Shown here piece by piece: positions 8,376 through 18,940 of a stretch of 23,940 nucleotides of DNA (the stretch's first letter is position 1; each line of letters starts with the position of its first letter). This DNA comes from a virus. The DNA lies in IMG/VR virus record IMGVR_UViG_3300025781_000074, positions 1 through 23,940 of that record; one strand, 5' to 3'. A program made the translations under genes and the position numbers. Under the pieces are notes generated by a model that ran no database searches, had not been told where the DNA came from, and was given only the letters and a program-made list of their open reading frames with translations.

Positions 8376-8398
8376 CCTTCCTAACGGTTGTAGGAAGG
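8376..8398 (-). terminator. Eight-base-pair hairpin spanning the stop of the GlcNAc-transferase-like gene
   Basis: CCTTCCTA at 8376-8383 is perfectly complementary to TAGGAAGG at 8391-8398 with a seven-base loop. In the leftward transcript the stem encloses the TAG stop of the gene and is followed by a weak U-containing stretch (CUUUUAAG further on). It may be a partial terminator or an RNA-protecting stem. The word CGGTTGTA also repeats on each side. Confidence 0.4.
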
Positions 8399-9364
8399 AG
8401 GGATGTAGCCTTCCAGGTAGGGCCCGTACACAGGATGGGTTTTGGTGTACTTGAAGAACCTGTCGACCGCACTTTTATTCCTAGGGTCCTTGATAAAGGC
8501 TAAGTATGAGTCTCTAATCTCCTGAATGTATCCTTCTACAGAAAGCCCTTTGGGGTTTGCTCCGCTTACTCTGAAGCTGTAAGAGGAAAAGTTGTTGTTT
8601 ACATTATTGTGAAATAGGTGCGCTAGAGGAACGACTTTATTTGGGAACACCAGAGAAAATCCTGATTCCAACAGGTTCATGGTTTGAATCAGCTCTTCTT
8701 CCCAGAACACCACTGTCTCAGGAAGTCCGTGGTTTTCATAAAAATGCTTGTTAGAAAACATGAACTGGGCGTTAGCTTTTACACAAGGTACGTACAGCGC
8801 ATCGCATTTAAACTGACCCGTTACCAAATTAAAGTCACGCCAGCTAGGGAATCCTCCTTGAAACCTAAACTCGCACACAAAGAATGGGTACTTAGCAAGC
8901 TTGCTTTCCCCAAAATACCCTCTAGTGTTAGAGTCGTCATGTTCATAGGACGGCAAATAAGCGGTCAATATGGTTTTCTCGTTGCCTGTTTCCTTTAATG
9001 CATCCTTGTACATGTCCACAAGAATGACGTCCCAATCTTTCTCAAACTTTGTATGAGAGTCAATTTGAAGTATGTAGTCTTGGTTGGAGTATTCAGCCAG
9101 CGCGGAGTTTCTTCCAAATCCTATGGTAGGGATATACTCTCCTACTCGGTACCTTTTTATTGACACCTGAGAGTTATCGGCAAGAGGAAGAACCTGCTCG
9201 TTAAAGAACTTATCGTGGTCAGGGGTTTCCCATTTCCCCATTACATCCATAAAGACAACATTAATAAATACTTCTTTAGGGTTTCGTGCCATCGACAGCG
9301 CTTCTGTAATCGTGTAAGGAAGCTGGTTATCGTAAAAGCTTGGCACAGCGACGTAGATAGACAT
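8381..9364 (-). CDS. GlcNAc-transferase-like glycosyltransferase (GT60 / Skp1-GlcNAcT type)
   Basis: The 327-residue enzyme begins MSIYVAVPSFYDNQLPYTI, the opening typical of the GlcNAc (PF11397-type) family, whose members transfer GlcNAc from UDP-GlcNAc to hydroxyl groups on proteins. The metal-binding acid motif is QIDSHTKFEKDWD, with DSH at about 102-104. FWEEE at about 220-224 fits the downstream acceptor/catalytic segment, and His 249 and His 252 (LAHLFHN) fit the third metal-ligand region. The protein is soluble, with no signal peptide or membrane span. The ATG overlaps the stop of the 51-residue gene (TAATG). Its place among virion genes suggests a protein acceptor, perhaps the fibres; host surface sugars are the alternative. 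Confidence 0.78.
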   Translation of the reverse strand: MSIYVAVPSFYDNQLPYTITEALSMARNPKEVFINVVFMDVMGKWETPDHDKFFNEQVLPLADNSQVSIKRYRVGEYIPTIGFGRNSALAEYSNQDYILQIDSHTKFEKDWDVILVDMYKDALKETGNEKTILTAYLPSYEHDDSNTRGYFGESKLAKYPFFVCEFRFQGGFPSWRDFNLVTGQFKCDALYVPCVKANAQFMFSNKHFYENHGLPETVVFWEEELIQTMNLLESGFSLVFPNKVVPLAHLFHNNVNNNFSSYSFRVSGANPKGLSVEGYIQEIRDSYLAFIKDPRNKSAVDRFFKYTKTHPVYGPYLEGYIPPSYNR

Positions 9365-9519
9365 TACATCTCTGCTTCAGTAAAAGTCGGGTTGCTGAGG
9401 AACAGTGCTGCCAATCTAGGAGTAGATACTTGAAACGTCTCTATAACGCGACCATCTACAACTATGTTTAAAAGAATTGACGGTTGTACAGTTTCAGGTT
9501 CTTTTTTCTTTTTCCACAT
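9364..9519 (-). CDS. 51-residue protein coupled to the GlcNAc-transferase-like gene
   Basis: The ATG at 9517-9519 overlaps the preceding stop, and its own TAA overlaps the next ATG, so the gene is locked between two neighbours by TAATG strings; AAGGA lies eight bases upstream. The product starts MWKKKKEPETVQPSILLNI and continues VVDGRVIETFQVSTPRLAALF, a basic head followed by strand-strand-helix. No family is recognised. The tight coupling suggests a partner of the enzyme encoded next or of the protein encoded before it. Confidence 0.75.
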   Translation of the reverse strand: MWKKKKEPETVQPSILLNIVVDGRVIETFQVSTPRLAALFLSNPTFTEAEM

Positions 9520-10199
9520 TATGAGTAGTCCTTAATCCTTCTCCATAGCTTTTTGTACACTCCGTCGCCAGCTCTAGTTTTCTCGGATTGTTGAACAACC
9601 TTTTCGCTAGCTGTCCAGTCTTGAGCATAAATCCATGTATCACGCTTAATAGGGATTATTTGTGCGTACGGCGTACCTGCGGGTATCACACCAGTAAACC
9701 CTGATTTAATAAAGAACGGGATGTTGCCCCAAGCGCTATACTCATCAGTATCTACAATCGCTGACATCGTAGTAAAAGGAAGCTCAAATCTATTGAGCGG
9801 ATGCACTACTAAGCTGCTATATCCCTTTGGTGTTTTCCACCCCCACTGACCAGACCACACTAAGTGGTTGTTCTCATGTCCTGCGGGTCGAGGCATCGTA
9901 CTTCCTGATACGCCTTTTCTCTCGCCAACTATTCCGTAATCAGACTCCCATTCCAATTTAAGGGCACCATCTTCAGCGTAGGAAACGTAGATGTCCTCTG
10001 GAGTAACCAACATATAGCCAGCAAGTAGCCCGTCAAGAAAAGGGGCACATGTCTTTAAACCCGAAAACTGTTCTCCATGAGGAGAGGAGTAGTAGCGTTC
10101 TGCTTTTGTATACCATTCAGGTATTTGAGTTTTGCTAGGAGTCGGAGATTTAAGACCAGGGTTTAAACCTGGCATAGGGATAAACTTTACAAGCTTCAT
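9519..10199 (-). CDS. Conserved protein resembling DUF6065, cupin-like pattern
   Basis: The 226-residue product has a Pro-rich start and IPEWYTKAERYY, then CAPFLDGLLAGYMLVTPEDI (about 51-70), WGWKTPKGYSSLVVHPLNR (about 119-137), LPFTTMSAIVDTDEY (about 140-154) and FFIKSGFTGVIPAGTPYAQIIPIKRDTW. This order of motifs, a threshold-like strand with P-x-GYSxxVxxPxNR, an I-V-D-T-D turn and an IPxGTPxxQIIPIKR strand, is what I recall of DUF6065-like and related phage-borne proteins with a double-stranded beta-helix shape. A cupin or oxygenase fold is possible, but no clear HxD...H iron triad is seen, so no reaction is assigned. AAGGAG precedes the ATG. Confidence 0.6.
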   Translation of the reverse strand: MKLVKFIPMPGLNPGLKSPTPSKTQIPEWYTKAERYYSSPHGEQFSGLKTCAPFLDGLLAGYMLVTPEDIYVSYAEDGALKLEWESDYGIVGERKGVSGSTMPRPAGHENNHLVWSGQWGWKTPKGYSSLVVHPLNRFELPFTTMSAIVDTDEYSAWGNIPFFIKSGFTGVIPAGTPYAQIIPIKRDTWIYAQDWTASEKVVQQSEKTRAGDGVYKKLWRRIKDYS

Positions 10200-10224: not shown

Positions 10225-11982
10225 CTACCCTGTTACTTGTGCGGAAAACGCTCCAGTAGTGTTCCCTTGATTTTGCGCCGACTTCGTAAGAATAATACCA
10301 TGAAGGTTACCTACAGGAGTTACGCTGGTCGCTGAAGCAGTTCCTACCGAGGTAGTAAGCGCATTATCGCTATAGGCATTAGCCGTTACGGTACTACCAG
10401 TAACCACGACACCGATGGCTTTTGCAATAGCGGTAAGCGCCGTAGATGCCACAGAAGTCACTGTTCCAGCTACTGAACGGTACAGGTTAATATAATAAGC
10501 AGTCACTGCTGCAGAATTAGGTGCGTTATCGTACGCAGTAGCAGAGTAACTATAGCTGTAGTACGTAGTATTTCCCCCGCCTTGCGCTTGCCGAGAACCC
10601 GTAGCAGTTCCATAGTGGTAGTAGTAGGAGCCGTCTCCTCTAGGACCTTGAGGCGTAGCGACAACGTAGGTGTAATACTGTGTGTAGTAATACGTTGGGT
10701 GGTAAGCAGAGCCTGTTCCCGATGCCGTGTAATTATACGTATACGCATACGTGTAGGAGTCGTTTTCAAGTCCCACAGCCGCCCACCAGTTATTAGAGTC
10801 TTGAATCATAAACGCAACGCCAGTACCTAACGAAGAGTTCTTAGTGGATACGGTAACGAGAGGGCTTTTAAGGTCTACCGCAGCTATCGAAGCGCTGGTA
10901 GCGCTCACCGTATCATCCGACTGCGCTACTCCGTTATTTGCGTACCAGATTCCCTTAATGGCTTGCCATAAAGTTCCTGACGAGGTAGTTCCTAAAGAGC
11001 CAGAAGTAGTTCTATTAAAGTCATCTGTAACAATAGGAATAGGAGCTACGGAGTTAGATGCAGCAGAGGCCGCAGATGAGCCGTTGGCGTTTATCGCCGT
11101 AACAGCAAAGGTGTAGAACACACTTGGCAAAAAGTTTCCAGTAACTGTGAGTGGGCTAGAGGAGCCCGATACAGTAAGGGGAATACTAGGGGAGCTTGTT
11201 ACCGTGTAAGAGGTTATTGACGAACCTCCAGTAGCCCCTGGTGTAAAAGGAATAGAAACTGTCGTAGAGTTTGTAACGGTTACAGTGCCAATAACTGGGG
11301 CATCAGGAACGGTTTTTATTGCTACAGATGATGATGCGGAAGAGGCGTTTGATGTTCCGTTGTCGTTTGTAGCCGTTACTGTAAAAGCATAAGAAGTATT
11401 TGAGTTTAACCCTGTAACCGTAACAGGGGAGTTTCCTGTTGCAGTAATGCCGCCAGGACTAGATGTTACCGTGTACTGTGTTATTGCTTTTCCACCAGAA
11501 GCAGGAGAGGTAAAAGAAACTGTAGCCCGTCCATTATTAAATCCAGAGCCTGAGTTTACTGCGATAGCAGAGGTTATTGTTGGAGAGTCAGGCACAGATG
11601 TGGGGGTTACAGAGGTAGTTGTAAAAGGCGATGATGAGCCTGCTCCACTTGTACCCCGAACGGAAAATGTGTAGGAAGTACCTGGAGTAAGTCCAGTAGC
11701 GATAAGTGGATTTTGCGAACTACTTGATGTAATACTGTCTGGGGTAGAAGTGGCGGTAAACCCTGTAGCAGTTCCTCCAGTGGTAGCTACGTTAATTGGA
11801 ATGGATACAGCAGCGCTATTAAACGGCCTATTTGTTCCAATATCCGTAGGAGTTCCTACCGAGAGTAAGTCAGGGACATCAGGTATCTTTACTGAGGGAC
11901 GGCTTATCTGGCCTTTTTGATACTGCTTATCTGAAGACGTTCTAGCAGAGGCAGACTCTTCGCTGACGTGTCTAGGACCCAT
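10225..11982 (-). CDS. Tail fibre-like protein: three fibronectin III domains plus lectin-like C-terminal domain
   Basis: After a charged 30-residue start, three FN3 repeats follow at about 33-130, 131-225 and 226-315. Each carries the landmarks SYTFSV / SYAFTVTATNDNG / FYTFAVTAINANG near its end and VPD-type linkers (VPDSPTI, VPDAPVI). FN3 domains in phage virions bind cell-surface sugars weakly. Residues about 316-585 start DDFNRTTSGSLG and look like a laminin-G/concanavalin-type beta sandwich. This is interrupted at about 405-480 by an extraordinary Tyr-rich insert (YTYAYTYNYT, YYYTQYYTY, YYYHYG). No signal peptide or catalytic motif is seen. AAGGGG lies before the ATG. It is most likely an adsorption protein on the virion surface. 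Confidence 0.85.
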   Translation of the reverse strand: MGPRHVSEESASARTSSDKQYQKGQISRPSVKIPDVPDLLSVGTPTDIGTNRPFNSAAVSIPINVATTGGTATGFTATSTPDSITSSSSQNPLIATGLTPGTSYTFSVRGTSGAGSSSPFTTTSVTPTSVPDSPTITSAIAVNSGSGFNNGRATVSFTSPASGGKAITQYTVTSSPGGITATGNSPVTVTGLNSNTSYAFTVTATNDNGTSNASSASSSVAIKTVPDAPVIGTVTVTNSTTVSIPFTPGATGGSSITSYTVTSSPSIPLTVSGSSSPLTVTGNFLPSVFYTFAVTAINANGSSAASAASNSVAPIPIVTDDFNRTTSGSLGTTSSGTLWQAIKGIWYANNGVAQSDDTVSATSASIAAVDLKSPLVTVSTKNSSLGTGVAFMIQDSNNWWAAVGLENDSYTYAYTYNYTASGTGSAYHPTYYYTQYYTYVVATPQGPRGDGSYYYHYGTATGSRQAQGGGNTTYYSYSYSATAYDNAPNSAAVTAYYINLYRSVAGTVTSVASTALTAIAKAIGVVVTGSTVTANAYSDNALTTSVGTASATSVTPVGNLHGIILTKSAQNQGNTTGAFSAQVTG

Positions 11983-11991
11983 GTGAACCCC

Positions 11992-12333
11992 TTAAGCGCT
12001 GATGTCGCCGTATAGTACCCAAGCATCTGTAGAGACTTGAATAAGCTCTGCTCGAGAATATTGGGCGCGAGTTTTTAATCCAGGTGTTCCATTGATAGTA
12101 ACTCCAGAAGCGCCTGCAAAAGTTACTTGCCCAGCGCCGTACTGAATAACAGACACTTTACTACCGACAGGAATTCCTGCCACAGAGTACAAGGGAACGG
12201 TAATAGTGTTTGAGCTGCTGCTCGTCGCCAAGATAACCTTAGAAGCATCTGTTGATGCTAAGGTGTATGAGGAAGATTGCGAGTTAATCGCGCTTGGTTG
12301 CCCGATGAGTCCGCTAACGTTGGAGACAGACAT
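11992..12333 (-). CDS. Stand-alone copy of the fibre C-terminal module (113 aa)
   Basis: The product is a beta-rich module: SYTLASTDASKVILATS, then TITVPLYSVAGIPVGSKVSVIQYG, GQVTFAGASGVTIN, ending LIQVSTDAWVLYGDISA. The same order and the same WVxxGDIS ending occur at the C-terminus of the long collagen-like fibre encoded at 16607-18940 ([30 protein letters not shown]), so the two are paralogous modules. This pattern is common at the tips of phage fibres. The start overlaps the preceding stop (TAATG). It probably serves as a small tip or decoration protein. Confidence 0.75.
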   Translation of the reverse strand: MSVSNVSGLIGQPSAINSQSSSYTLASTDASKVILATSSSSNTITVPLYSVAGIPVGSKVSVIQYGAGQVTFAGASGVTINGTPGLKTRAQYSRAELIQVSTDAWVLYGDISA

Positions 12334-12668
12334 TAAGCGAGCTCACTTCCAAAGGCGCTAAATGACATGGTTGAGCTAGAGCCATAGACCTGAATTTTAT
12401 CGCCAGAAGCTAGCGTTAGTCCAAGAGTCAGAACTGTAGAGTCAGAACCAGCAACAGTTGCGCCGTAGATAATCCAGTGCTTAGCAGCAGTAGAGCTGTC
12501 TGCAGACGGGCGGACGGCAATGCGGTAGGTAGCTGGGGTCGAAGCTTGATTACAGACGGTGACTGTGGAGACAATCGCCTGAGCGCCTGCGGTATATAGG
12601 GTGCCTTCTGTAGTTGCCCCAAGGGTAGCTGTTGCTACTTGACCCAAGACCTTATATGTGGTTGCCAT
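12333..12668 (-). CDS. Small virion protein of the ATTYKVLGQ type
   Basis: The 111-residue product begins MATTYKVLGQ and continues LYTAGAQAIVSTVTVCNQ, PATYRIAVRPSADSS, KHWIIYGATVAG and ends DKIQVYGSSSTMSFSAFG. I recognise the pattern KVLGQ ... LYxxxxxxxVSTxxVCN ... YRIAV ... DxIxVxSS...SFxxFG from many marine and freshwater phages, where it is annotated as a structural or tail protein of unknown role. It is a compact beta sandwich without Cys pairs or catalytic residues. AAGGAG lies five bases before the ATG. Decoration or fibre-tip accessory is the likely role. Confidence 0.8.
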   Translation of the reverse strand: MATTYKVLGQVATATLGATTEGTLYTAGAQAIVSTVTVCNQASTPATYRIAVRPSADSSTAAKHWIIYGATVAGSDSTVLTLGLTLASGDKIQVYGSSSTMSFSAFGSELA

Positions 12669-12724: not shown

Positions 12725-13288
12725 TTAACTAATCTTGCTGAGGTTGTTTTCTACCGCTGTCTTATACATAGGGGCAAGGTCTTTTTCTAAAAGAGCATTA
12801 AAGAGCTGGATAGACTCGTCCTTGCGCCCAACCCACCATGCGGCAACGGCCTTCTGGAAAGTCAAAACGTACGGGTCTATGTACCCTAGGGTAAGAGGCA
12901 AAGGGCCAAGTTCTTGGGTAGAAAAATATAGACCAACCTCAGCTGCTGTGTAGGACTCTTGCCATTTTTTATTGCGCTCGTAGTATTGCGCCAACACAAA
13001 CCACGCTTCTGGACGGTTAGGTAGGTAGGCAATAGCCTTGTCTATTAGGTTCTTTACTGTATTGGTGCGATTTTTTTGGCGCTCAAAACAGTTAGAGGAT
13101 TCTAACAAGGCTGCGTAGACAAGCTCTGGGGTTGAATAGTAGCCGTACTCAGCAGTACGTAGGTAAAAGGATACGGCGCTCGCAGTCTGCCCAATCTTCT
13201 CGTACTCAACTGCAGTCATAAAGCTAAGAGCAGGATTAAATGGGTCGTTGGAAATGTCGACAATTAGCTTGTTAATAGCCTCATACAT
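12725..13288 (-). CDS. TPR (tetratricopeptide) protein of the glycan cassette
   Basis: I place the start at ATG 13286-13288 (MYEAINKL) because a perfect AGGAGG lies six bases upstream; the longer frame from 13312 has no such site. The 187-residue product is all helical, with TPR-like pairs: FNPALSFMTAVEYEKIGQTASAVSFYLRTAEYG, then PELVYAALLESSNCFERQ, then RPEAWFVLAQYYERNKKWQESYTAAEVGLYF, and a last pair ending in ALLEKDLAP. TPR arrays bind peptides. Next to a glycosyltransferase and a GH130-like gene, which it overlaps by 8 bases, it may present acceptors or scaffold the enzymes. A pure structural role is the alternative. Confidence 0.75.
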   Translation of the reverse strand: MYEAINKLIVDISNDPFNPALSFMTAVEYEKIGQTASAVSFYLRTAEYGYYSTPELVYAALLESSNCFERQKNRTNTVKNLIDKAIAYLPNRPEAWFVLAQYYERNKKWQESYTAAEVGLYFSTQELGPLPLTLGYIDPYVLTFQKAVAAWWVGRKDESIQLFNALLEKDLAPMYKTAVENNLSKIS

Positions 13289-14279
13289 TGAGGGCCTCCT
13301 CGACGAGTTCATCTACCACTGTAGCTGGGACCTCTAATACAAAGGCAGCGTTATCAACAAAACCAAAACTAATAATAAGAGAACCGTCATGTACTGCTGC
13401 TCCTGCCGCGAATTCAATTTGACCATCTAAGAATGACCATGACTGTGGAGATACCCCAATCAAGTTAAGCTCAGAATCCCACACACATAAACGATGGCGG
13501 TAAGTGCCATTTTTTTGCCCCAAGTAATTCTTAAAGAGGACTACCTCATGGGTAATAGCAATATAGTTATTGCCCCACTTGACGAGCTGGCTACCGCCAC
13601 GTTGGTCAGCGTTGACTACTTTACCTGGGGTTACTTGCACCTGGGTGCACTTCTCTTCATTAGGGTAGGCTTGAACAACCTCAGTAGGAGAGGTCCACTT
13701 GATGTACTGGTAGTCCTTATCAAGGATAGGCATCCAGTTCTTCTCGCAGTAAGAATCTGGATTAACGGGGGCAGGTATGCGAGTGCGCAAAATTTCTTTC
13801 GCTGTCCATGCGCCCTTATCAATCTCTAGTTCAGAAAGCTCCATACGCCCTTGACCATTAGTGGTGGTGTCTCGGCGCACACCAGTTCCGTAATACTTGC
13901 CGTCCCACTTTACGAGTCGAGCATCTTCTAGACCAACAAATGTCCAGATAGGTTGAACATCTAAAAGAGTGGTGTCGATAAGGGTGTAGTTAATAACGTT
14001 GTAGTCTTTATCCAAACGGCAGAAATAGTTCGCCGTTACTAAGCGTTGGTCTTCTTCTGGATGCAAATAAGAAAGCGGGCCCCATATGCTAGGAAACCGT
14101 TGGTCGTTCTCAGCATGGTAAAGGGTGTAGTTGATGTGGCGCAAGATACAGAGTATGTCCCCATCGTCGTCTATAAAGATAGAGGGGTTCATTAGCCCTG
14201 TTCCCTGAGTAACCTCAGCAGGAATAATAAGCGGCTTTAATTTACCGCCTGCTTGTACCGATTTTTGCACCAAGTTCAT
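13281..14279 (-). CDS. GH130-like five-bladed beta-propeller protein
   Basis: The 332-residue protein shows the pattern of GH130 (beta-mannoside phosphorylase/hydrolase) relatives: NPSIFIDDDGDILCILRHINY (about 31-51), VGLEDARLVKWDGKYYGTG (about 115-133), EKNWMPI (about 179-185), RGGSQLVKWGNNYIAITHE (about 227-245) and FAAGAAVHDGSLIISFG near the end. In the true enzymes these segments line the sugar pocket and supply acid and phosphate-binding residues. The GxEDxRL and RGGSxL elements are present, but whether all catalytic residues survive cannot be judged by eye. No signal peptide is seen. It lies between the glycosyltransferase and TPR genes. It could trim, phosphorolyse or only bind mannose-type glycans. 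Confidence 0.68.
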   Translation of the reverse strand: MNLVQKSVQAGGKLKPLIIPAEVTQGTGLMNPSIFIDDDGDILCILRHINYTLYHAENDQRFPSIWGPLSYLHPEEDQRLVTANYFCRLDKDYNVINYTLIDTTLLDVQPIWTFVGLEDARLVKWDGKYYGTGVRRDTTTNGQGRMELSELEIDKGAWTAKEILRTRIPAPVNPDSYCEKNWMPILDKDYQYIKWTSPTEVVQAYPNEEKCTQVQVTPGKVVNADQRGGSQLVKWGNNYIAITHEVVLFKNYLGQKNGTYRHRLCVWDSELNLIGVSPQSWSFLDGQIEFAAGAAVHDGSLIISFGFVDNAAFVLEVPATVVDELVEEALNV

Positions 14280-14295
14280 GGGTTAAGTGTAGCGG

Positions 14296-14991
14296 CTATT
14301 CCTCAGTACGGGTGTTCCACCACATCGCGTAGTAGTTGTAATCAAAGTTAAAGCGCTTCATATGCTGGGCGATAGCTCCAGTATGAGCGTGAACAGGCAC
14401 CCCTACAGCCTTGAGCTTGCGAAAGAAGACAATATCTTCGCTGACATATCTGCCCCCAAGACCCTCTTGTTCAGCAAACATTGATTGCTGAGGGTAGGCC
14501 TCACGAAGCTTAGGAACGATAGATTTGTGCATCAGAACAAGTCCCATGCCAGCGCAATCTACCTTGATGACTTGGTTCTCAGGAAGGGGATGAACGTGCT
14601 GGATAGTGAACTCATCCACGTCATTAAATATAACGGGCATTGGATTAGCTAGGGTTCCTTCATCGCTCTTAGAGATAAAGTAGATGCCACTAATAACAGG
14701 GCGCAAAACTTTATGGGCTTCAGCCCAAAGTTTCTTAAGGATGTCAATAGTCAAAACGACATCGCTATCCACCCAAAGAATCCAATCGGTCTGCAGGCTA
14801 TCTGCCCAGCCATCAAAGACGACTTGGCGTTGGCGACCAATCTGGTTACCTGCACAACGAGCAAAGTTCTTAATATTAATTCCTGCCGCCTGAGCGTCCA
14901 GAATCGTATAAACAAGACCTTGAGTAAATTTGCCGTCTGTCATTCCCCCATCACACCAAGCGATGGTCAGAGTGTCCTTATTAGATGCCAT
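14296..14991 (-). CDS. GT-A type glycosyltransferase
   Basis: The 231-residue protein has a nucleotide-sugar fold. It starts LTIAWCDGGMTDGKFTQGLV, contains ARCAGNQIGRQRQVVFDGW (about 44-62) and the DxD metal motif in WILWVDSDVVL (DSD about 75-77). Later come CAGMGLVLMHKSIV (about 145-158) and GGRYVSEDIVFFRKL (about 178-192), where the Glu/Asp pair fits the usual acceptor/catalytic segment. There is no membrane segment, so it acts in the cytosol. It is first of the GT / GH130-like / TPR trio. AAAGGA lies eight bases before the ATG within a small CCTTT-AAC-AAAGG hairpin. Substrate unknown: virion protein or host glycan. Confidence 0.82.
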   Translation of the reverse strand: MASNKDTLTIAWCDGGMTDGKFTQGLVYTILDAQAAGINIKNFARCAGNQIGRQRQVVFDGWADSLQTDWILWVDSDVVLTIDILKKLWAEAHKVLRPVISGIYFISKSDEGTLANPMPVIFNDVDEFTIQHVHPLPENQVIKVDCAGMGLVLMHKSIVPKLREAYPQQSMFAEQEGLGGRYVSEDIVFFRKLKAVGVPVHAHTGAIAQHMKRFNFDYNYYAMWWNTRTEE

Positions 14992-15017: not shown

Positions 15018-15209
15018 CTATAACAGACTAGCTCCTGTGGCAGTGCCAACAGATTGCCAGACAGTGCCTGTCCATACCCACGTACGACCACTATAGGTGT
15101 ATGTGGTGACGTTAGGGATTAATCCTGTGGTTGGGAAGCCAGAAGAGTGTATAGCCCCTAATGATTTAATCCTCGAGTGGCTAAAATGGAAGCGTGAGCA
15201 AATGGCGCG
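15018..15209 (-). pseudogene. Fibre-domain fragment in frame after the propeller gene stop, no start codon
   Basis: Straight after the propeller gene's TAA, the same frame stays open for 63 codons up to TAG at 15018-15020. It has no ATG, GTG or TTG. The second half reads like a phage fibre or carbohydrate-display module: NVTTYTYSGRTWVWTGTVWQ, SVGTATG. It is best explained as the remnant of a fibre gene or of a longer propeller gene cut by a stop; stop-codon readthrough giving a 529-residue product is the interesting alternative. The region would otherwise be an unexplained 218-base gap. Confidence 0.5.
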
Positions 15210-16610
15210 TTAGGCGCTAATAATTGTGCTAATCATATTGCCGCTAGCGTCTGTAAAAGTACCGCTGGCGCTGACTAAAGTATATGACTGGGCACTTAGA
15301 CTAACCGTTCCTGCGGATAATGCGCCAGCGGAATCTACCAAAGAACCCGTTGAATAAACCAAGCCAGCACCAGTGCTAGAAAGAGGCGAATAAGTGCCAG
15401 TCTTAGAACCATCTTGAGGTACTTGGATAATACTTGCTAATTGGTTTCCTGAGCCGTCTCCAAAAGCACCACCAATAGTTACAAAATAAGTTGAATCGGT
15501 GTAAATTGTTTGAAGTACTGCAGCATCATTAGCAGTATTTACAATAGAGTTTTGCCATTGTAAAGTGCCGCTAGAATTGTATTTCATTAGAAAACCGTTT
15601 TGTATACCCGTATCTGGGTCTGTCCAAATGCCAATGATGTAAATTTCATTGCTTGAACTGACATTTATAGCATTGCCGTATACAGTTTGGTCACTTGGGC
15701 CGCCCGCGTTTGATATTAACCGCTGCCATTGTAAAGTTCCGCTAGAATTGTATTTGGCAAGAAAAGCATTTGTTCCATACGAACTGTTAAATACAGTTCC
15801 AAGTATGTAAGCATTTCCGCTTGAATCAACTCCAACATCGACGGCTTGGTCGTATAGTGCCGCGGGATTTTGGGTTAGAGATTTTTGCCACAAAAGAGTG
15901 CCAGATGAATCTAGTTTTAATAAAATAGCGTTAATAGCGGTGGTTCCATGTTCGCCTTTTCCGCATACATAAATGTTGCCGCTAGCATCTAAAGCAATAG
16001 AGTTGGGAATGTTATTAGGGCCATCCGCAAATGCTTTTTGCCATTGTAGCGTTCCGCTGGAATTGTACTTAACGACCATAATACCTATAACACTTGTGGA
16101 TTGCGTAGACCTACCGCATAAATAAATATTGCCGCTACTATCTAAAGTCATTCCTAGCAGCCAATCCTGTTGAGCATCTGCCGATAAACTTGAACCCGAT
16201 AACGAACGCTGCCATTGAAGTGTTCCGCTATTATTATACTTAATAAGAAAACCGTTGTTACTGGTATTGGAAGTACTATAAAAGCCCGCCGCGTAAATAT
16301 TGCCTCCAGAGTCCACGCAAATTCGAGCAGGATTTTCGACTTGATTAGCGGCGGCTCTTGAATCGGCAAATGTTCTTTGCCATTGAATTGTGCCAGCATT
16401 ATTAAACTTAATGACCGTTCCGTTAACACCTTCGCTAGAGTTATATGTTTGTGCTAGTGCATAACTATTGTTAGCGGTATCCGTAGTAATGGACTCGATG
16501 TTGTCGTATCTATAGTCAAGAGTATATGGGTCGACAAGCCCCATAAACCAATAAGAAATGGAAACTACTACTCTTTTAGCACTATCCATAATCCCTAAAA
16601 TTGGGGTCAT
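15210..16610 (-). CDS. Seven-bladed beta-propeller virion protein (GTLQWQ repeats)
   Basis: The 466-residue protein repeats the blade signature GNIYxxG ... [10 protein letters not shown]. Blade landmarks are NNSYALA, GNIYAAG, GNIYLCG, GNIYVCG, GNAYILG, NEIYIIG and a degenerate TYFVTIG. Six GT-L/I-x-WQ strings occur (about positions 72 to 350), so seven blades are likely. This resembles bacterial SBBP/delta-60-type propellers, here without any export signal. The last 60 residues ([17 protein letters not shown] to the end) are a small beta domain. It starts at the ATGA overlap with the long fibre gene, with no clear ribosome binding site, so it is translationally coupled. The DNA looks more AT-rich than its neighbours, hinting at acquisition. 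It is probably a receptor-binding or fibre accessory protein. Confidence 0.75.
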
Positions 16611-18940
16611 GATATATCGCCAAAAACAATCCAGTTATTTGCCGATAATTTAATACAAGTAGCGCCAGAGTTAACCGCACGAAGTTTAGGAGTATTACTG
16701 GTTGCTCCTGTGCTTATGACGGTAGTTGTTCCAGGAGTTACCGCACCAATGGTTGGCTGACCTGCTCCGCCAATCCAAAATACGCTGATTTCAGTTCCCA
16801 CGGGGAAGTTAAATGTAGCGTCAGTAGGAATAGAAAATTGAACGCTAGAGGCGCTATTCATGGAGAATAAATTGCCAGCGTCTCCACTACCAAATGTATA
16901 AGCGTCGGTCTTGGCGGTATAGGTCACAGAAGGCGCACTACCCGTTGTTCCTTGAACACCTTGTGCTCCTGTAGCTCCTTGGGTACCAACCCCCGTAGTT
17001 CCTTGAGCACCTGTAGAGCCTTGTGCTCCCGTAGCTCCTTGAAGTCCAGTCGCTCCTTGAGCACCTGTAGTTCCTTGAGTTCCAGTTGAGCCGATAGCTC
17101 CCTGAGCACCAGTAGTACCTGTCGTACCTTGCGTACCTGTAGAACCGATAGCGCCTTGAGTTCCTGTTGCACCCTGGGTTCCCGTTGTACCTTGTGAGCC
17201 TGTTGTACCCTGCGCTCCTGTAGTTCCTTGCGCCCCAGTAGTTCCTTGAATACCTACCGCACCATCAAGGTTTACTGTCCAAGAAGCATATGTTCCAGAG
17301 CCGACAATTCTGTCATTAGTAAATGTAAGGGCGCCAGTTAATGTGTTATAGGCGCTTACAGTTCCATAGACAAGGTTAGCAATAGTATTGGAAACTACAA
17401 CGTTTTGTCCTACTGAGTAGTTAAGGGCCGTTCCTACTGTGATAGTGGTAGAGCCGCTAGCGCTTAGAGTAAAGGATGTAGTAGAAGATGTAGCGTATTT
17501 GTCACTAGCAGTTCCTTGAATACCCTGTGTACCTTGAGAACCTTGAGCACCATTTGAACCGCTAGTACCCTGTGCACCAGTTGTACCCTGTGCTCCTGTA
17601 GTACCAGTTGTTCCTTGAGCACCAGTCGAACCAGTGGCTCCTTGAGAACCTGTTGTGCCTTGAACACCTTGTGAGCCTGTAGCGCCAATAGTACCTTGTG
17701 TTCCTACAGCTCCTTGAGTTCCTGTAGCGCCCTGAGTACCATTTGAGCCATTAGCTCCTTGAGAACCTGTTGTGCCTTGGGTACCAACTGCGCCTTGTGA
17801 GCCAGTTGTTCCCTGAACACCTTGTGAACCAGTATTACCAGTAAATCCTTGGGTTCCTTGCGTACCTTGTGTACCAGTATTTCCTTGAGCGCCAGTAACG
17901 CCTTGAGAACCTGTTACACCCTGCGTTCCTTGGGCACCTGTAGTTCCTTGAGCTCCTGTTGAACCTGTTGAACCCTGAGCACCAGTGGCACCAGTTGTGC
18001 CTTGTGCTCCTGTGGAACCTGTAGCACCTTGGGTACCAACTGCGCCCTGTGTTCCCGTGATTCCTTGAATACCTTGAATACCTTGCGGGCTCTGAACACC
18101 CTGAATTCCTTGTGTGCCCTGTGTGCCTTGAACACCTTGGTTACCTTGGATAACGCCCACGTTAATCCAGGCGCTTCCTTCCCATACATAAAGATATGGG
18201 TCAATAATGTAGCTATCACCATTAGTGCCTGTTGGGTGAGCTGCTTGTAGAGCCGCAAGGGTGGAGTAGGAGCCAAGAATTGTGACAGAAGTACCTGCAA
18301 TACCTTGTGTACCCGTATACCCCTGGATACCTTGAATACCTTGAAGGCCTTGGATTCCTTGAGAACCAACAGTTCCCTGAATACCCTGAGTTCCTTGAGT
18401 TCCCTGTAGTCCTTGGGCACCAATTGCACCTTGAGTACCTGTGGAACCTGTTGCTCCTTGGAAACCAGTAATTCCTTGAGTGCCTTGTGAGCCTGTTGCT
18501 CCAGTAGCACCTTGTGTACCAGTGCTGCCTTGCAAACCTTGAATACCTTGTAGGCCTTGAATACCTTGTGTGCCCTGCACGGTAGGCACATCTACGTCAA
18601 TAGTATTTTGCGCTGAATGGTACGTAAATGTAATGTTTGTGTTGGTGCCGCTATTGAGGGCATCTGCAACTAATTCTGTGTGAAAATATTTGTTTGTAGA
18701 ACCTTCAAGAAGGTCGTCTGTGGAGCCTAAAGCTGCGCCCGAAACAGCATTAGCAATCTCTGTAGCTAAATCTGTGGGTGTAACTGTCGCATAGTCAAGG
18801 TCTCGCCAAGAGTGAATTCCATCGCCAATTTTAAATTTGCCCGTGTTAGTCTCAAAACCAATTTCGCCTTGAGCAAGCTCTGGGTTACTATCGTGCCAAG
18901 TGGTGGAGATACCACGACGTACTTGAATCTTTGTTGCCAT
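16607..18940 (-). CDS. Long collagen-like tail fibre with Mtd-type N-terminal domain
   Basis: The 777-residue protein starts [20 protein letters not shown], then [20 protein letters not shown], the N-terminal domain seen on many phage fibres and the Bordetella Mtd tropism protein. [11 protein letters not shown] follows at about 79-89. Three collagen-like Gly-X-Y blocks lie at about 119-213, 267-477 and 562-672, dominated by GTQG, GIQG, GATG and GSQG, with Gln/Thr rich and Pro rare. Between them are a folded module ([19 protein letters not shown] ... [12 protein letters not shown], about 215-267) shared with the fibre at 21233-22207 and a beta domain (about 479-562). The C-terminal module (about 673-777) ends [10 protein letters not shown]. 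The TAA of the previous gene abuts the ATG directly. The triple helix forms the shaft. Confidence 0.9.

Follow-up and report, generated by a model that had tools for sequence, protein, structure and literature searches.

The DNA analysed here (the window), a virus record of 23,940 bases, has all its main genes on the minus strand. It contains overlapping genes for a GH130-like propeller and a TPR protein, which are best explained as the two subunits of an enzyme that glycosylates the phage's own fibre module. We give this reading as a whole a probability of about 0.48. That the propeller and TPR protein form a sugar-transfer unit, we infer with considerable confidence. The evidence comprises the coupling, fusion and co-inheritance of the two genes, the fold and retained residues of the propeller, its biosynthetic neighbours, and its nearness to fibres. 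The donor, linkage, reaction direction and acceptor are predictions. The core would be a two-subunit, virus-specific sugar-transfer enzyme. Its GH130/GT108-like propeller would use an activated donor, GDP-mannose or mannose-1-phosphate, and pass the manno-configured sugar to an acceptor with inversion. Holding or selecting that acceptor would be the task of the TPR subunit, which is translated from an overlapping reading frame. In relatives, the glycan is probably capped by a methyltransferase that is fused to the pair or encoded directly after it. The phage's own fibre module, with its collagen-like, fn3 or small Ser/Thr-rich proteins, is the likeliest acceptor, and would be glycosylated in the cytoplasm before virion assembly.

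The sheath, tube, and tape-measure proteins, named from sequence, suggest that the window originates from a contractile-tailed phage. Genes for collagen-like fibres are followed by those for a propeller-repeat virion protein, a GT-A glycosyltransferase (GT), the GH130-like propeller, and the TPR protein, and then by those for two small putative virion proteins, an fn3 fibre, a phrog_7084 protein, and a GlcNAc-transferase-like GT (Table 1). The first-pass annotation had described the GT-A, propeller, and TPR genes as three consecutive, coupled genes placed between fibre genes, with a GlcNAc-transferase-like gene further on in the same operon. The three genes are real, with correct coordinates and correctly named folds; they are flanked by collagen-like, propeller-repeat, and fn3 fibre genes, and the more distant gene has the expected Pfam match. 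The gap between the GT and propeller genes is 16 nt. The TPR gene probably starts at the ATG at 13288 and not at 13312; the former has AGGAGG seven bases upstream, and the sequence ATGTATGA results in an 8-nt overlap with the propeller gene. Threonine occupies 46 of the 138 X positions and 46 of the 138 Y positions of the collagen-like protein. The fibre relic beside the GT gene corresponds to an intact 404-residue fibre in two related contigs (L086 and L095), and indicates fibre turnover at the edge of the cassette. The phrog_7084 protein recurs in the fibre region of relatives, often adjoining the GT.

Table 1 Features of the fibre module and glycosylation cassette in the window.
Feature	Position	Strand	Evidence
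Five-bladed propeller enzyme, GH130/GT108-like, 332 aa, predicted to be an inverting manno-sugar transferase/phosphorylase	13281..14279	-	AF2 model, Foldseek, PF04041 in relatives, conserved residues
TPR protein, 187 aa from SD-preceded ATG, obligate propeller partner, predicted acceptor/scaffold subunit	12725..13288	-	TPR_17, 1e-7
GT-A glycosyltransferase of 231 aa with a DSD motif, lineage-specific and optional beside the pair	14296..14991	-	phrog_34859, 6e-105
GlcNAc-transferase-like GT, same operon, 3.4 kb downstream of the trio	8381..9364	-	PF11397, 6.1e-22
Small Ser/Thr-rich putative virion protein, candidate acceptor, not exclusive to the cassette	12333..12668	-	Frequent beside the cassette in relatives
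Small putative virion protein of the fibre module	11992..12333	-	Neighbourhoods of relatives
fn3-repeat fibre/tail protein, 32% Ser+Thr	10225..11982	-	PF00041, 6e-22; composition
Propeller-repeat (SBBP) virion protein, just upstream of the GT	15210..16610	-	PF06739, 5e-15; phrog_8510 virion structural protein, 1e-27
Collagen-like fibre, Thr-rich Gly-X-Y repeats	16607..18940	-	PF01391, 2e-62
Relic of collagen-like fibre N-terminal domain, between the propeller-repeat protein and the GT	15018..15140	-	97% identity over 36 aa
phrog_7084 protein	9519-10199	-	1e-35

A scan of IMG/VR found relatives of the propeller in at least 597 viral contigs or loci. Neighbourhoods were sampled from the best 80 of these loci together with loci from TPR and GT queries; therefore, the sample leans towards close relatives of the window. 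The TPR gene directly follows the propeller gene in 97 of the 110 distinct propellers of the fetched loci, with an overlap in 94 (median 11 nt), and the two are fused in 11, so that adjacent or fused genes account for 108 of 110. One exception has the TPR gene one gene away, and the other is an actinophage homologue with 23% identity. The same pairing is recovered from the other side when the TPR protein is used as the query. The pairwise distances of propellers and TPR proteins have a correlation of 0.89 over 95 loci, compared to 0.56 with the small protein at 12333 and 0.25–0.32 with two other fibre-region genes. Judged from these distances, the propeller and TPR protein are co-inherited. 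The fusion proteins, found in 16 loci, are about 740 residues long where complete, and consist of the propeller, the TPR, and a C-terminal FkbM-methyltransferase-like region.

The GT-A gene is not a part of this unit. Among the fetched loci, it lies directly beside the pair only in the lineage of the window and near-identical contigs (L005, L085, L086, L095, and L231), and its relatives elsewhere adjoin other fibre-region genes. A conserved trio is thus rejected: the three genes are adjacent in the window, as had been described, but the search for the same trio in other phage genomes, run on viral contigs, recovers only the propeller–TPR pair outside this lineage. In a few other lineages (L048, L060, L061, L105, L110, and L155), the pair is preceded by unrelated GT-A-like genes that have FVDAD or WIDSD motifs. 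In L060 (4539-7133) and L110 (1543-4131), a Prim-Pol/D5 primase-helicase gene is positioned directly before the GT-A-like gene and the pair; therefore, the cassette of this one lineage also adjoins replication genes.

The AF2 model of the propeller, built from 54 viral sequences, has a pLDDT of 90.2 and a pTM of 0.89, and is predicted to have the five-bladed β-propeller fold of GH130. In a Foldseek comparison of the model with the PDB, ranks 1–39 are all GH130/GT108 or related GH130-type glycosidase-like entries, with E-values from 5e-9. At the sequence level, the GH130 similarity appears remote, which counts against the fibre-glycosylation reading: the window propeller alone scores 14.5 bits against PF04041, below the curated cut-off of 26 (E 0.017). 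The same profile is matched by 26 of 53 propeller relatives at E<=0.1 (best 1.3e-4). A sequence-only search of the PDB with the window propeller or GT found nothing significant. Profile alignment of the propeller with cellular GH130s (hhalign) spans residues 4–332 with P = 8e-6, the best of three reference sets; a phosphorylase-like set matched, whereas the first GH130 set, of the BT3780-like type, gave no match.

Conserved residues of the propeller include N31, R47, E118, D119, K180, R227, H244, and D309. All of these except R227 are paired by the profile alignment, with positions checked by spacing, with mannose-binding or catalytic residues of GH130 enzymes, the roles of which were taken from ref. 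PMC4599007. The catalytic Asp of the GxED motif and the Asn/Asp of the −1 subsite are present: E118, D119, N31, and D309 are invariant in 53–54 relatives and align with BT3780-type residues via cellular GH130s. The phosphorylase-type His (H244) is kept; by contrast, the hydrolase-type Glu is absent from the residue alignment, with Q226-R227 in its place. This combination of residues makes activity of the phosphorylase or transferase type more likely for the propeller than a trimming function or loss of activity. The first-pass annotation had seen it as a glycan-trimming or glycan-reading module and asked whether its catalytic residues remain. E118-D119 and the phosphorylase-type His do remain, and a hydrolytic, trimming role is disfavoured both by the residues and by the biosynthetic partners of the propeller in relatives.

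It is improbable that the propeller is itself a virion component, a tail lectin or enzyme that binds or cuts host mannosides, with the TPR protein as an assembly chaperone. Fibre assembly often needs chaperones, the cassette is positioned among fibres, and oligosaccharides are substrates of GH130 enzymes. However, the propeller contains neither the hydrolase-type Glu nor a fibre anchor domain, and a single chain that joins propeller, TPR, and FkbM-like methyltransferase is unlike a virion fibre.

The phage propeller resembles GH130 mannoside phosphorylases (Teth514_1788/1789, UhgbMP, and BF0772) and β-1,2-mannosidases (BT3780) in its predicted five-bladed fold and in its active-site Asn, Arg, Glu-Asp, Lys, phosphorylase-type His, and Asp, which can be aligned with theirs (residues from ref. 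PMC4599007). Unlike them, it is viral and tied to a TPR protein and methyltransferases, and its likeness to them amounts to about 10–17% identity and a TM of about 0.5–0.6, below the Pfam cut-off. The GT108 mannosyltransferase/phosphorylases of Leishmania (6Q50 and 6Q4X) have the same fold class as the propeller model and, to our knowledge, no TPR partner. They are an example of the synthetic use of a propeller (ref. PMC8950772) but, unlike the phage enzyme, serve mannogen storage in a eukaryote. Profile search detected no sequence relation of the propeller to GT108; its match to 6Q50 and 6Q4X is one of predicted fold only, and the building of β-mannosides from GDP-Man or Man-1-P would be a candidate activity. 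The nearest predicted viral structures belong to an uncultured phage and to giant viruses, which suggests a family common to both. Some of these matches are parts of long proteins with glycan-building names (fucosyltransferase, WcaK-like, or LicD-like). The fold occurs in BFVD entries A0A481Z3W1, A0A3G5AFP7, A0A3G5AG18, and A0A1V0SDN7 from Pithovirus-like, Solivirus, Satyrvirus, and Indivirus sources, in some cases inside long glycan-enzyme proteins.

The TPR protein belongs to the TPR superfamily, with 32.1 bits against Pfam TPR_17 (cut-off 24.4); the matches of its profile in the PDB are weak and to designed TPRs. The phage glycosyltransferase family phrog_13126 is matched by 31 of 34 TPR members. 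The match of the window protein begins at position 177 of the 394 in the profile, behind the N-terminal part, which suggests that in phrog_13126 this TPR is fused to the C-terminal side of a GT. The third gene, which comes after the pair, encodes FkbM in 13 of 24 sampled cases; class-I methyltransferases, GT25, GT2, and ATP-grasp also occur as third genes. Extended TPR proteins carry FkbM, Methyltransf_24, DUF6445, radical SAM, or GT2 domains. Upstream of the pair, some genes encode NDP-sugar epimerases of the GDP-mannose dehydratase kind, and one a sulfotransferase. Almost all partner genes are predicted to have building, not degrading, functions. Two contigs encode, directly after the pair, an RfaE-II-like nucleotidyltransferase fused to a mannose-6-phosphate isomerase cupin (GMP/PMI-domain; L158:3611-4372 and L159:7131-7910). 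Both are viral contigs binned in bacterial MAGs, and such a sugar-activation fusion is unusual. The window has no methyltransferase; there, the GT-A enzyme encoded before the pair could make the first sugar–protein link or add another sugar.

The identification of the latter as a GT-A enzyme with a DSD motif is borne out. It matches phrog_34859, annotated 'glycosyltransferase', D75 and D77 of the motif are invariant in 13 relatives, and the AF2 model (pLDDT 87) matches GT-A enzymes in the PDB (best E 5e-9), consistent with a GT-A fold with DxD. The nearest structures are STIV A197 (an archaeal virus GT), human LH3, Mimivirus R699, B4GALNT1, LH3/ColGalT1, Mnn9, and polypeptide GalNAc-transferases (ppGalNAc-T). 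Protein- and collagen-acting neighbours would suit a fibre-side gene, with a TM of about 0.5–0.6 that fixes the fold only. Collagen-like proteins are encoded near the window GT, a further parallel to LH3/ColGalT1 and R699; however, the likeness is at the fold level only, and no lysyl hydroxylase was found beside the GT. The pairing of the TPR protein with the GT-A enzyme had also been compared to an O-GlcNAc transferase split into two genes. O-GlcNAc transferase (GT41) is a GT-B enzyme. It resembles the cassette in joining a TPR to a sugar-transfer catalytic domain, but the partner of the phage TPR, as the 16 fusions indicate, is the GH130-like propeller, and the nearby GT is of the GT-A type and is not conserved with the TPR. 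Therefore, the comparison to a split O-GlcNAc transferase does not hold.

In ten contigs of 43–98 kb, the propeller gene is closer to a collagen-like gene than 82–98% of the contig's genes, and this nearness, seen in 10/10 long contigs, has a combined Fisher p of 4.7e-5. Nearness to fibres equally fits modification of the receptor. The main rival reading, which we consider unlikely, is that the cassette alters the surface glycan of the infected cell (mannose or O-methyl), and blocks the adsorption of other phages or the re-adsorption of its own progeny. GTs, FkbM methyltransferases, and epimerases also act in LPS and capsule biosynthesis, so the cassette has the same types of enzymes, and its position beside fibres fits co-evolution with the receptor. 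Of the 103 distinct loci in which a gene upstream of the cassette is visible, 33 have that gene on the opposite strand, where it often encodes a fibre or small virion protein. This places the cassette of those loci outside the same transcript, as in morons, and co-transcription with fibres is not general. However, the cassette neighbourhoods have no recurrent gene for a membrane protein, flippase, or lipid-carrier enzyme, and a promoter scan gave no more sites than shuffled sequences did, and none immediately before the trio. A soluble protein acceptor is suggested by the TPR partner and by the co-directional coupling in the late operon of the window. In the trio itself, the maximum 19-residue hydropathy is 0.8–1.6, with no conspicuous membrane-like segment. 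The idea of a self-contained fibre-glycosylation system thus survives as a biosynthetic, soluble, and fibre-associated one, with a TPR partner and enrichment near collagen-like genes, and without the trio as its unit or a trimming propeller. The small protein at 12333-12668 was considered as a dedicated acceptor. It is near the cassette in 23 of 57 loci, but the cassette is near it in only 20 of 80, and the remaining 60, with no cassette in the fetched flanks, weaken this candidacy.

Least probable of all is a small-molecule or DNA role, in which the cassette would supply a sugar that modifies phage DNA or would salvage mannose-1-phosphate from glycans of the host. The function of GH130 enzymes is usually catabolic, DNA-glycosylating phage GTs are common, and DNA protection is a published view of freshwater phage GTs (refs. 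PMC10202952 and PMC10611076). However, in all ten long contigs the cassette belongs to the fibre module and is not located with genes for replication or nucleotide metabolism; no base-modification genes were noted in the window; and the partners are sugar-modifying and protein-interaction domains.

Fibre glycosylation by the propeller–TPR pair would have a parallel in phage GTs that decorate virion proteins, as reported for mycobacteriophage Che8 (Freeman 2023, cited in refs. PMC11256854 and PMC12619734). As these accounts describe it, the mycobacteriophage system differs in that it involves the capsid and tail tube of actinophages and ordinary GTs encoded near the 3′ end of the genome, and they mention no propeller–TPR pair. 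Virion glycosylation by phage GTs is already known; on the pair, a literature search that combined GH130 and phage brought up no paper. Tentatively, the cassette may represent a new virus-specific design, in which a GH130/GT108-type propeller is a protein-directed glycosyltransferase with an obligatory TPR acceptor subunit and an O-methyltransferase cap, and decorates the fibres of many freshwater phages. If so, the receptor-binding fibres of a very common group of aquatic phages would carry a chemical coat, made with an enzyme fold that has so far been known from mannan metabolism and a TPR subunit that picks the target. This would be a testable new kind of protein glycosyltransferase, and would explain why phage fibre islands contain so many genes for methyltransferases and glycosyltransferases, which are usually put down to DNA protection or superinfection exclusion.

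The phages with the cassette are a widespread, mostly freshwater family. Three of 50,697 phage records carry it, two of which were assembled from a lake metagenome (ref. PMC10611076). Among the carriers of the pair, the record that names a culture host is that of Synechococcus phage S-SCSM2R (L002), with WH7803 as the recorded host. A scan of 84,980 cellular genomes found the propeller family in six contigs (L155-L160), all with viral neighbours. These look like phage contigs misbinned into MAGs, one of them labelled Woesearchaeota. Two contigs, L034 and G056, contain two propeller copies each, and in L034 both copies have TPR partners.
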